The position numbers and the translations under genes were made by a program. A model generated the notes under the pieces. The model did not search any database. It was not told the origin of the DNA and saw only the letters and a program-made list of their open reading frames with translations. This document shows, piece by piece, positions 4,610-8,877 of a stretch of DNA of 64,000 bases (position 1 is its first letter; every line of letters starts with the position of its first letter). Source of the DNA: Candidatus Poribacteria bacterium (GTDB lineage: Bacteria > Poribacteria > WGA-4E > WGA-3G); the NCBI GenBank assembly GCA_026706025.1, contig JAPOZO010000056.1, forward strand, positions 186,001 through 250,000. Direction: 5' to 3'.

Positions 4610-5560
4610 ATGAAACACATAAAGATTCCCGGAGTTAGCAAAGACATCTCACACCTGATTCTGGGCAGCATGATGTTCTCCCCTACCAGGTTTGACTATA
4701 GTACTGAAATGCTCGACGCATTTTTTGAAGCGGGTGGAAATGCCCTCGACACAGCACACGGTTATGGCGGTGGCGATAGCGAGATGCTCATCGGTCTCTG
4801 GATGCGGCAACGTGGGAACCGAGACGATGTTTTTCTTATTGATAAAGGTGGACACCCACAAGGTAGAGTGCCACGCCCGCGTCTCTCGCCTGAAGAACTC
4901 AAAGCTGATCTTGATGAAAGCATTACACGCCTCCGGACCGATTATATCGATCTTTACATGCTCCATCGGGATGATCCCGTAATTCCGGTGCGTACAATTA
5001 TTGATTATCTGAACGAAGAGATCGGGGCTGGACGCATCCGAGCCATTGCTGCCTCTAACTGGCAACCGGAGCGTATTACTGAAGCTAACACCTATGCCGA
5101 GGAAAATGGACTTGCGGGTTTCGTCTCCTGTAGCAACAATATCAGTCTCGCTGTGCCGATGGAACCGATGTGGGGTGGGTGCGTCTGCGTTGATGATGCC
5201 GCACGCGCATGGCATCAGGAGAGCCAATTTCCGTTGATGCCGTGGTCTTCGCAAGCGCGAGGTTTCTTTAGCGGTGCTTTTACACCAGAGAATCGGGATA
5301 ACGGAGATATGGTGCGCGTCTATTACAATGACGAAAACTTTGAAAGACTTACACGCGCAAAGAAATTAGGCGAAAAATACGGCTATTCCCCAATTCAAGT
5401 CTCCCTCGCATACTGCTTGAATATTTCTTTTCCAGTTTTCCCGATTGTTGGACCCGCGACTTTAGATGAAATGGACTCCTCACTCGGTGCAATGGGGCTT
5501 GAACTCTCTGATGCTGAAATGCAATGGCTCAACTTAGAAACGGATAGCGATCCCCTATGA
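4610..5560 (+). CDS. aldo/keto reductase
   Basis: A 316-residue cytosolic TIM-barrel NAD(P)H-dependent oxidoreductase. The tetrad pattern is readable: Asp and Tyr in 'ALDTAHGYGGGDSE', Lys in 'LIDKGGHP', and His in 'DLYMLHRDD', followed by 'RIRAIAASNW' and, near the C-terminus, 'VFPIVGPATLDEMDSSLGAM' that binds the cofactor phosphate region. Length is typical for the bacterial YdhF/IolS-like groups. The stop TGA overlaps the ATG of the next gene (ATGA at 5557-5560), which implies translational coupling with the unusual outer-membrane gene downstream. Substrate unknown. Confidence 0.88.
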   Translation: MKHIKIPGVSKDISHLILGSMMFSPTRFDYSTEMLDAFFEAGGNALDTAHGYGGGDSEMLIGLWMRQRGNRDDVFLIDKGGHPQGRVPRPRLSPEELKADLDESITRLRTDYIDLYMLHRDDPVIPVRTIIDYLNEEIGAGRIRAIAASNWQPERITEANTYAEENGLAGFVSCSNNISLAVPMEPMWGGCVCVDDAARAWHQESQFPLMPWSSQARGFFSGAFTPENRDNGDMVRVYYNDENFERLTRAKKLGEKYGYSPIQVSLAYCLNISFPVFPIVGPATLDEMDSSLGAMGLELSDAEMQWLNLETDSDPL

Positions 5561-6636
5561 TGATTCGAATTTTTTGTCTCCTACTCTGCCTTCAATTCAT
5601 CCTTTTCCCCTTCGGCTTTGCCCAAGAGAGTTGAGGTGCCTGAAGCAATCCCGCGATTCCACGTGGCGGGATCGGTGAAGTCAGTTTGGCTTCAGGAGAG
5701 ATGAAGAGATTCCAGGGCTCCTTCAGTATGATGCGGTGGTTTGACGCACAGGGCGGACACCTCGAAACAAAAGGGATTTCCGCAGATGGAAAAGTGATAG
5801 AGGTCCCGCTGCACCGACACCATGTTAAATTGAACATTTTTCGCGTTGACATCGGGTTGAAATATCGCCTCAATTCCGAGTGGATGCTGGAAACAAATAT
5901 ACCGTACGAGACCAAAATTCAAGAGGCAATCATTGAAGAAATTGACCCTGTCACGGAGGCACAACGAAAAGCAATTGCGCACAATCAGGACAATCATCAC
6001 CGCAATGAAACTTACACGGGACCTATGGACACGGACATCTTCTTAGGGTATCAGAGGCAAGGCGTGTTCGTGGATCACGATTTCCTTGTGGGGCGTATCG
6101 GAACGACGATTCCTCTTGGGAAAACTGAAGAGGATCCGTGGAAGTTAGGGGATGCAGGACTTAAGCATCTCCATATCCAGTTTGGGACTGGTACCTTTAA
6201 TCCGATCGCTGATCTGCATTACGGTTTGCCCCTCTATAAAGGTTTGCGAGCGAACGTCAGTCTCCGCGGAAAGTTACCCTTCTATGAAAATAGCAAGGCT
6301 TATCGTGGTTCCAGAGAGGTTACTTACACAGGGGGTCTGGATTATAGTTTCAGCGATTGGCTTTCGTTCCAAGCTGGCTATCTCGGCTTTTATCAGTCCT
6401 TCGCCTATTGGGCAGGCGAACAGGACATCAATTCCGGGCTCCGGTTCAGTATGGCATGTTTCGGAGCATCCGTTATAACGCCTTATAATGTGCCGTTGTC
6501 TCTGACGGTGATGTTGCCCTTACATCAGGAGACGCTTTATGACGACACGGCTGCTTTGCTTGATGATAGATACGAGGAGCGCGACGCTTTTGAATTCGGT
6601 CCTCTGGTGTCCTTGACAGTTCTATATGCGTTTTAG
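5557..6636 (+). CDS. exported outer-membrane barrel-like protein with two in-frame TGA codons (candidate UxxU selenoprotein)
   Basis: The ATG at 5557 overlaps the upstream stop and opens a clear signal peptide ('MMIRIFCLLLCLQFILFPFGFAQ'). In the same frame come Ser25, TGA (5632-5634), Gly, Ala, TGA (5641-5643), then 'SNPAIPRGGIGEVSLASGEM' and an uninterrupted frame to 6636. If both TGAs are read the product has 359 residues with U26-G-A-U29 right after the signal peptide. The rest has alternating short amphipathic strands ('NIFRVDIGLKYRLNSEWMLETNIPY', 'DYSFSDWLSFQAGYLGFY') like a beta-barrel. The genome encodes at least two other Sec proteins (selD, formate dehydrogenase), and a 7-bp hairpin sits just downstream. 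If TGA is not recoded, the fallback is initiation at TTG 5686, which would lack an export signal. Confidence 0.6.
5648..5672 (+). promoter_or_regulatory. candidate bacterial SECIS hairpin
   Basis: ATCCCGC (5648-5654) pairs perfectly with GCGGGAT (5666-5672) around an 11-base loop that begins with G. It starts four bases after the second in-frame TGA; its loop is about 20 bases after the first TGA. Bacterial SECIS elements are hairpins close downstream of the UGA with a G in the first two loop positions, so this fits in form. Not tested by a SECIS model. Confidence 0.45.
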
Positions 6637-6678
6637 AATATCGTTTTGCCTCGAAAAAAGGCGTATTCCTACAAGAAA

Positions 6679-8877
6679 ATGATAAAATTATTGAAACCTC
6701 ACAACACAGCACGAAGAATCAATTTTAGGGCATTGCTTTCGAGCAGATGTTTCATAGTCCTAATGGCACTCGCTTTTTTTCTGAGTTGTGGCGTGCCGAA
6801 TAATCCATATCCGAAATCTGAACAGGACGCGGAAATCTATTACAGCACGTTTAGTGAAGAACCGAAGCACTTCGATCCGGCAGTGTCCTACAGCTCAGAC
6901 GAATACAGGTTCATCCAGCAAATTTATGAACCGCCTTTACGGTATCATTACCTCAAAAGACCCTACGAATTGATCCCACTAACGGCAGCGGCGGTCCCAC
7001 AACCCCAATATTATGATGCTGATGGCAAGCCGCTATCGTCAGATGCTCCCGCAGCGTCCGTCGCGCGCGCTGTGTATGAAATTCGTATCCGTCCCGGTAT
7101 CATGTATCAGCCGCACGCCTGTTTTGCAAAAACTGAAAGGGACATATTGCGGTACCACGCCTTGAAAAAAGCAGACGTGAAGGGTTTTACCGAGATCAAA
7201 GATTTTCCGATGACAGGGACGCGTGAACTTATCGCAGCGGATTATGTCTACCAGATCAAACGGATGGCGGACCCGCGTCTCGCCTGCCCTATTCTTAGCA
7301 CGTTGAAAGATTATATCCTTGGAATGGACACGTATTCCGCCGCGCTTGCTAACGGACAGGAAGAGGCACCCTTTCTGGGCGTGGAGATTGTGGATCGGCA
7401 CACCTATCGAGTTATCCTAAAAGCGAAATATCCGCAGTTTGTCTATTGGTTGGCGATGCCTTTCTTTTCACCGATGCCTAAAGAGGCGATTGACTTTTAC
7501 AGCCAACCCGTTATGAAGGAGCGGAACATCACGATTGATAGGTTTCCTGTCGGAACAGGTGCCTATCGGATAGAAACGCTCCTTGCACACAAGGAGATCG
7601 TTCTCGTCAAGAATGAGAATTTTCGGGTTGAGCGTTACCCATCGGGTGGGGAACCCGGTGATAGGGATGCTGGACTTCTTGACGATGCGTGGGAAACCGT
7701 CCCGTTTATACCGAAAGTCGTCTACAAATTAGAAAAAGAATATATTCCGCGCTGGAATAAGTTCTTGCAAGGGTATTACGATAGTTCAGGCATCTCCTCA
7801 GATACATTTGACAGCGCGATTATGTTCGATGATACGGGGGATCCGAAGGAAAGTGAGGCATTGAAGGCGAAACATATTGTCCTACGTACGAGCGTAGAAC
7901 CGACGACTGTTTATCTCGCTTTTAATATGTTAGACGATATCGTCGGTGGGTACACCCCAGAGAAACAGAAACTTCGGCAGGCGATTTCGATCGCCTTGAA
8001 TTACGAAGAGTATATTGAAATTTTTCTCAATGGACGTGGTGTTGTGTCACACAGTCCACTGCCCCCTGGTATTTTCGGCTACGAAGCGGGTGAGACCGGT
8101 ATTAATCCATATATATACGACTGGGATGGAAGTGCCAACCGTCCGGTTCGCAAATCCATTGAAGCAGCACGCCAGCTTCTCGCAGAAGCTGGCTACCCGG
8201 GTGGACAGGATAGTAAGGGGAATCCGCTGATTGTCTCTTTTGACAACACGTGGAATTCGGCAGGTGCCACGTCTCGCTTAACGTGGATGCGGAATAAATT
8301 AGAGCAGCTCGGCATCACGATGGAGAGTCGCACCACCGATTACAACCGTTTTCGCGATAAAGTGAAAAAAGGAAACTTCCAAATCATCTTTTGGGGATGG
8401 CATGCGGACTATCCGGACGCAGAAAATTTCTTATTCCTGCTCTACGGTCCGAATAGTAAAGTCCTACGCGATGGCGAAAATGCTGCCAACTACGATAATC
8501 CAGAATACAACCGGCTCTTTGAAACGATGAAAAGCATGGAAAACTCGCCGGAACGATTGACCCGCATTCGCGAAATGAACCGTCTGTTACAACGAGACGC
8601 GCCTTGGGTCTTTGTTTATCACCCTGTTGTTTTCGGCCTGTCGCATCAGTGGTTGAAGAACAGTAAACCGAGTGCCTTGGGCGGTGGAAACTTCAAGTAT
8701 CTCCGCATTGATGCCAGTCAGCGGACAGAGAGCCGTCAAGCGTGGAATCAGCCTGTTGTTTGGCCCCTGTGGGTATGCCTCGGATTGCTGATTTTAGGCA
8801 CGATTCCAGCGGCCATCACAATTTGGAAACGAGAAAGACAAACAAAACAGGCCCATACTACTGACGAAGGCACATAA
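6679..8877 (+). CDS. peptide-type ABC transporter substrate-binding lipoprotein (SBP_bac_5)
   Basis: About 732 residues from the ATG at 6679 (a TTG at 6646 is also in frame). A hydrophobic segment ends in a lipobox 'FFLSCG'. The mature part follows the family 5 extracellular binding-protein plan: 'STFSEEPKHFDPAVSYSSDEYRFIQQIYEPPL' at the start of lobe I, 'FPVGTGAYRIETLLAHKEIVLVKNENF', 'LRQAISIALNYEEYIEIFLNGRG', and the C-terminal 'WHADYPDAENFLFLLYGPNS'. Unusually, a membrane helix ('VWPLWVCLGLLILGTIPAAITIW') and a basic tail follow residue ~700, so the protein may be anchored at both ends. It precedes an OppB-type permease by 80 bp. Ligand probably an oligopeptide or similar, unknown. Confidence 0.85.
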   Translation: MIKLLKPHNTARRINFRALLSSRCFIVLMALAFFLSCGVPNNPYPKSEQDAEIYYSTFSEEPKHFDPAVSYSSDEYRFIQQIYEPPLRYHYLKRPYELIPLTAAAVPQPQYYDADGKPLSSDAPAASVARAVYEIRIRPGIMYQPHACFAKTERDILRYHALKKADVKGFTEIKDFPMTGTRELIAADYVYQIKRMADPRLACPILSTLKDYILGMDTYSAALANGQEEAPFLGVEIVDRHTYRVILKAKYPQFVYWLAMPFFSPMPKEAIDFYSQPVMKERNITIDRFPVGTGAYRIETLLAHKEIVLVKNENFRVERYPSGGEPGDRDAGLLDDAWETVPFIPKVVYKLEKEYIPRWNKFLQGYYDSSGISSDTFDSAIMFDDTGDPKESEALKAKHIVLRTSVEPTTVYLAFNMLDDIVGGYTPEKQKLRQAISIALNYEEYIEIFLNGRGVVSHSPLPPGIFGYEAGETGINPYIYDWDGSANRPVRKSIEAARQLLAEAGYPGGQDSKGNPLIVSFDNTWNSAGATSRLTWMRNKLEQLGITMESRTTDYNRFRDKVKKGNFQIIFWGWHADYPDAENFLFLLYGPNSKVLRDGENAANYDNPEYNRLFETMKSMENSPERLTRIREMNRLLQRDAPWVFVYHPVVFGLSHQWLKNSKPSALGGGNFKYLRIDASQRTESRQAWNQPVVWPLWVCLGLLILGTIPAAITIWKRERQTKQAHTTDEGT

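Follow-up and report, generated by a model that had tools for sequence, protein, structure and literature searches.

A putative family of outer-membrane barrel selenoproteins with paired selenocysteines in Poribacteria

We describe a gene family, carried by the majority of the genomes sampled from the Poribacteria, a major lineage of sponge symbionts, whose products are very likely selenoproteins and, on the strength of a predicted model, very likely outer-membrane beta-barrels carrying two selenocysteine (Sec) residues as Sec-x-x-Sec at the mature N terminus. The function that we favor, on balance, is that of a channel for soft metals; this is inferred from gene context, and there are as yet no data on selenium incorporation, metal binding or transport.

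Results

A gene with two in-frame TGA codons behind a signal peptide

The family was recognized through one gene in a 64,000-nucleotide stretch of DNA (the window, by which we mean the whole stretch analyzed) from a genome of Candidatus Poribacteria. Its close matches in named genomes were all in poribacterial metagenome-assembled genomes. The gene is complete (5557 to 6636, forward strand), ends in TAG and encodes 359 amino acids when TGA is read as Sec. Its start ATG overlaps the stop codon of the upstream aldo/keto reductase gene (4610 to 5560, forward strand; TATGATGA), and translation from 5557 gives MMIRIFCLLLCLQFILFPFGFAQES-TGA-Gly-Ala-TGA-SNPAIP, followed by 330 open codons up to the TAG. 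The first TGA (site 1, 5632 to 5634, forward strand) corresponds to Sec26 and the second (site 2, 5641 to 5643, forward strand) to Sec29. They follow a Sec-type signal peptide (5557 to 5622, forward strand), with cleavage predicted from sequence near FGFA/QES; in relatives this peptide varies in sequence and retains its hydrophobicity. The original prediction, made without database searches, had described the frame, the overlapping ATG, the signal peptide, the TGA-Gly-Ala-TGA motif and the 330 codons, all of which we confirmed. A 316-amino-acid open reading frame (ORF) that begins with TTG at 5686 is merely the read-through tail of the same frame.

Both TGA sites are conserved, and cysteine is the only substitute

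Homologues were present in 66 of 98 genomes in a search of relatives, and in 66 of the 84 genomes of the phylum once the search center was moved. A profile search covering the window's genome together with related poribacterial genomes yielded 115 full-length matches (counted from the results table), every one with one or two in-frame TGA codons and none without a TGA. Site 2 was TGA in 100 of 100 distinct sequences, as scored with a pattern that would also have accepted TGT or TGC there; site 1 was TGA in 74 of these and Cys (TGT/TGC) in the other 26. No homologue had TAA or TAG at either site, which argues against genuine stops, and no sample yielded one with Cys at site 2. The Gly, Ala, Ser, Asn and Pro codons that flank the TGAs occur as several synonyms across the 100 sequences, and the 30 closest orthologues retain both TGAs though their signal peptides diverge. 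On a maximum-likelihood tree, Cys at site 1 is placed twice: the CPAU sequences (U, Sec) form a single clade, and one CSAU gene is nested inside UGAU genes. These two placements show an exchange of Sec and Cys, as expected for a selenoprotein. The original prediction had held that Cys at both positions in relatives would be decisive, and this was met at site 1 only; it had also held that homologues starting at the position of 5686, or lacking Cys and Sec, would refute it, whereas all 115 full-length matches, from 66 genomes, retain the second TGA.

A search of about 300 non-poribacterial genomes returned no homologue, and a plasmid search returned no match. In a second sample, one phylum had UPAU at the equivalent place. 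This is a small phylum, represented by 7 genomes, two of which have the gene, reading FAQ-UPAU-SNP; SelA was seen in one of the two, whereas completeness of the other is only 82%.

The machinery for Sec insertion is present. The window's genome encodes SelA, a tRNA-Sec (78 bits against a cut-off of 47) and SelB adjoining the tRNA-Sec. As originally predicted, the window itself carries two other selenoprotein genes, both with a Sec TGA and both identified by motif: the formate dehydrogenase alpha subunit (Sec codon 21983 to 21985, reverse strand) and SelD, the selenophosphate synthase (Sec codon 53558 to 53560, reverse strand). The genome thus fulfills the criterion of SelA, SelB, SelC (tRNA-Sec) and SelD together, the last by motif, and the poribacterial family fulfills that of a conserved UGA with Cys as its sole substitute. 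TGA terminates 6 of the 35 long ORFs in the window, plus the gene next door, so it has not been reassigned. Given the conservation of the TGAs, the replacement of Sec by Cys at site 1, the UPAU genes of the second phylum, SelA, SelB and tRNA-Sec in the genome, SelD in the window and a covarying SECIS-like hairpin (below), we consider it very likely that these genes form a selenoprotein family, as the original prediction had proposed for the window gene.

The family also appears to be new. The 119 prokaryotic selenoprotein families listed in an inventory of 2026 include other outer-membrane barrels and other UxxU proteins, none of which matches it; a barrel with Sec is in itself precedented. 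We found no paper that mentions "selenoprotein" together with "Poribacteria" in the literature searched, which left out preprints and most subscription journals.

Several individual copies deserve mention. The window's genome contains a second selenoprotein barrel gene, of the CPAU type (G000:C95:68644-69690; L042, L116). One orthologue (G029, L128:5001-6080) has a third in-frame TGA in place of a conserved Trp, which is likely an error or a sign of decay. Fragmented, decaying copies of the selenoprotein gene lie at G068:C20, G045:C1:1198170-1198804 and G038:C2:632519-633145.

Two hairpins follow the UGA codons

Two conserved hairpins lie downstream of the UGAs. The first, H1 (5654 to 5674, forward strand; 7 bp, 21 nucleotides [nt]), is the one that the original prediction had placed right behind the TGAs. 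It exists, with 85 to 86% of cells paired and covariation in alignment columns 30 to 36; an alternative pairing of columns 18 to 23 also covaries, leaving its exact register uncertain. The second, H2 (5676 to 5694, forward strand), has an 8-bp stem closed by an A-U pair on a GUU triloop (5684 to 5686). At H2, 98.7% of cells are paired, both sides change in 4 of seven counted pairs, and slid controls drop to 15 to 56%. Its loop, A-GUU-U or G-GUU-C, fits the N1-G[G/U]N-N2 pattern published for bacterial SECIS elements (PMC13188914). At this place, 96 of 100 family members have six or more stem pairs capped by a G-first triloop; H2 cannot be recognized in L055, and three others have it in imperfect form. 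The second phylum differs in stem sequence but shares the stem length of 8 bp, the GUU loop and the location of the hairpin.

H2 fails the canonical criterion for bacterial SECIS spacing. Its loop starts at +41 from the second UGA and +50 from the first, outside the standard 16 to 37 nt from UGA to apical loop. As a yardstick we used the SECIS-like hairpin of formate dehydrogenase in the window, which likewise has 8 bp and a G-first triloop (GUC) and is located at +20, versus +41 for H2. (Short hairpins of canonical form follow the Sec TGAs of both formate dehydrogenase alpha and SelD, at +18 to +20.) In the window, H1 measures exactly 21 nt, and we infer that folding it out would leave 20 and 29 nt between the UGAs and the H2 loop, within the standard range. 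H1 was itself considered as the SECIS, and its distance fits, but part of the CPAU clade is without the conserved loop G, and it was for this reason ranked below H2. Covariation of the hairpin is thus shown, and its function inferred: in the absence of decoding data, H2 is the likely SECIS of the barrel gene, and the proposal that H1 serves as a spacer between the UGAs and the SECIS could as easily prove wrong as right. With this gene it can be tested whether a single SECIS serves two UGAs close to each other across a folded spacer.

The product is predicted to be a 12-stranded outer-membrane barrel

The window protein matched no Pfam or NCBIfam family at cut-off, and searches of PDB sequences and Rfam gave no confident family. 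Weak hits to many outer-membrane barrel models are seen among family members; PF13557 was matched by 13 of 34 members (best E value, 3.3e-5), the window protein not among them, and one far member reached 16.5 bits, below the cut-off of 22. An AlphaFold model of the window protein (pLDDT 73, pTM 0.72) is a barrel of 12 strands, as counted from its DSSP line, which span residues 52 to 358 (5710 to 6633, forward strand). Among solved structures, its fold is nearest to those of 4rl8, a COG4313 channel (Z 24.6, rmsd 2.6 Å over 248 residues), and FapF. The signal peptide, a C-terminal Phe in 93 of 100 members and the 12-stranded model all support the exported outer-membrane barrel of the original prediction, an assignment that is predicted rather than shown and that we regard as very likely.

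The Sec pair falls at mature positions ~4 and ~7, in the segment before strand 1; model confidence is below 50 for residues 13 to 31. Seven His residues (68, 86, 88, 147, 148, 204 and 206) are invariant in the 100 sequences, and in 92 of 100 members the sequence that follows the motif is free of Cys.

Other poribacterial barrels were encountered along the way. A set of weak barrel relatives with the motif HAPIGVMGDH was rejected: only the mid-barrel is common to both (hhalign, 94.5%), and they are without CxxC or UxxU. Several poribacterial genomes also encode a distant family of His/Met-rich barrels that share the motif SRPDSHAPIGVMGDHGH (L109-L115, e.g., G005:C1:3942836), with several copies in G006; the one member tested had no Pfam or NCBIfam match.

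Sister genes lie in metal-related neighborhoods

The window copy belongs to clade A, in which the gene order is aldo/keto reductase, barrel, solute-binding protein, and not to a metal operon. The aldo/keto reductase is the upstream neighbor in 45 of 47 clade A genes. The family 5 extracellular (peptide-binding) solute-binding protein (6646 to 8877, forward strand) is the downstream neighbor within the genus; that it is a functional part of the barrel system is unlikely.

Other members have more telling neighbors. Where complete genomes carry the CPAU paralogue, it is flanked by a Cys-rich secreted protein on one side and a YHS-domain protein on the other, followed by two outer-membrane efflux proteins (OEP), a CusB-like adaptor with heavy-metal-binding domains (HMBD) and a CusA/CzcA-family pump. 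In other genomes, including the window's, YtkA-like and FMN-binding proteins follow the CPAU gene. In a further family (f3), genes for an M56 peptidase and a BlaI-type repressor border the barrel gene, and one genome additionally has a YHS-TlpA protein there. Directly upstream of the barrel gene in the second phylum is a gene that fuses an HMA-like GMDCEAC domain to thioredoxin. Selenium-metabolism genes were not found as neighbors in any clade examined. The metal-efflux context of the sister genes is thus shown, and soft metals are suggested by three contexts independent of one another, though none is decisive for the window copy. The metal role raised in the original prediction accordingly has support from gene context only, not from experiment; with no metal-binding data, we lean toward a metal-linked function for the family.

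In related genomes the CPAU gene heads a CusCBA operon (L209-L212). The Cys-rich secreted protein, of ~146 amino acids and ending near RGPP, lies upstream of nearly all CPAU genes (L209:2214-2654, with homologues in L116 and L174-L206) and has no Pfam or NCBIfam match.

Discussion

Relation to known systems

The closest structural parallel is with COG4313/PF13557 channels (Pput2725, 4rl8), which, like the window protein as modeled, are 12-stranded barrels with an N-terminal segment before strand 1. Identity is only about 10%, the Sec pair and the seven invariant His are not features of those channels, and the function in which the channels are implicated, unlike the metal role proposed here, is the uptake of hydrophobic molecules. 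PcoB/CopB (7pge), an outer-membrane barrel of copper homeostasis, is a further fold match (Z 13.0). The N-terminal domain of PcoB is required for copper resistance (PMC12509749); in PcoB homologues this domain is rich in His and Met and has no Sec, whereas the N terminus of the window protein is not His/Met-rich, and a Pfam search gave no match between the window protein and the PcoB/CopB sequence family. CusCBA exports Cu(I)/Ag(I), and the barrel of the CPAU paralogue within such an operon is an additional component, not the OEP/CusC channel.

The original prediction had called a barrel with UxxU very unusual, which holds in part. Barrels with Sec are known, namely the FCYXU TonB receptor (NF049945) and the MtrB/PioB-type GSU2204 (NF041027), each with one Sec, from different barrel families and with no model match to ours. 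Sec pairs spaced as UxxU occur in the metal-related NF041115 (putative mercuric reductase/metal-binding), whose NCBIfam model does not match the window protein, and in Prx-like UxxC/UxxU proteins and FmdB, which belong to other protein families. The combination, Sec-x-x-Sec at the mature N terminus of a barrel, is absent from the 2026 catalogue.

Standard methods would tend to miss this family, as its SECIS spacing is atypical and no fully Cys homologue was found; deep-Sep, by its own statement, may not identify selenoproteins without Cys homologues. Poribacterial annotations that truncate genes at these TGAs would drop the signal peptide.

A soft-metal channel and its alternatives

The explanation that we find best overall, more probable than its negation by a modest margin, is a soft-metal outer-membrane channel with Sec-x-x-Sec as gate or ligand. 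In this model, H2 would recruit SelB and Sec-tRNA, and H1 would fold out 21 nt, shortening the UGA-to-loop distances of 41 and 50 nt to 20 and 29, so that Sec26-Gly-Ala-Sec29 is made at the mature N terminus of the 12-stranded channel. The short N-terminal segment would then most likely enter the barrel at its periplasmic mouth, by analogy with COG4313 channels; in 4rl8, the residues preceding strand 1 fold into and plug the barrel lumen (PMC4493636). This would bring the Sec pair close to the invariant barrel histidines. The pair may serve as a binding site for a soft metal ion, either Cu(I) or Ag(I) and possibly Hg(II), and gate or select its passage across the outer membrane in copper or heavy-metal homeostasis. 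Metal binding and the direction of transport are inferred. The luminal place of the N terminus rests on analogy with 4rl8, because model confidence is low there, and a luminal Sec gate remains a tentative proposal that we would not yet bet on. The same reserve applies to the bolder reading, in which a Sec-x-x-Sec plug and the invariant His together hold Cu(I)/Ag(I) and open or close the pore, and both UGAs, nine bases apart, are decoded by a single SECIS located behind a spacer hairpin; we judge it rather more apt to fail than to hold. If the metal role is correct, it would extend the use of selenium in metal handling to the outer membrane.

The strongest alternative, a possible one, is that Sec-x-x-Sec acts at the outer membrane as the diselenide redox centre of a reductase, isomerase or peroxidase, with metals incidental. 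In its favor, UxxU/CxxU spacing resembles CxxC motifs, f3 and the second phylum have thioredoxin/TlpA neighbors, and catalogued selenoproteins with such motifs are mostly redox proteins. However, the protein is a barrel with no thioredoxin fold, 92 of 100 members offer no other Cys, sister genes sit inside a metal RND efflux operon, and the invariant His suit metal ligands. A second alternative is a role in capturing or carrying selenium compounds at the outer membrane, in which the protein's own Sec residues take part. The family is widespread in several Sec-using genera, and COG4313-like channels are implicated in small-molecule uptake; this reading is nevertheless unlikely, given the lack of a selenium-metabolism neighbor in any clade and the coupling of the CPAU clade to copper/silver efflux.

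Readings in which TGA is not decoded as Sec fare worse. Were the TGAs real stops, the gene would encode a short leader peptide followed by reinitiation, or would be decaying; a TTG ORF does begin at 5686, and a few degraded copies exist elsewhere (G068, G045 and G038). Against this, codons between and after the TGAs drift synonymously, Cys is the sole replacement, with neither TAA nor TAG at the sites, and the frame is intact in 115 genes and in two phyla, making this very unlikely. Genome-wide reassignment of TGA, or sequencing error, which the original prediction had listed as a possible refutation, is all but excluded: no supporting evidence was found, TGA terminates other genes in and beside this locus as counted above, and identical TGAs recur in independent assemblies.

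Finally, two similar short coiled-coil ORFs lie at both ends of the window, at 475 (reverse strand; C-terminal sequence ETLKQRHIVSS) and 58944 (reverse strand; C-terminal sequence EVLKQQRIVNP), and relatives of these are also found near the barrel gene in other genomes.
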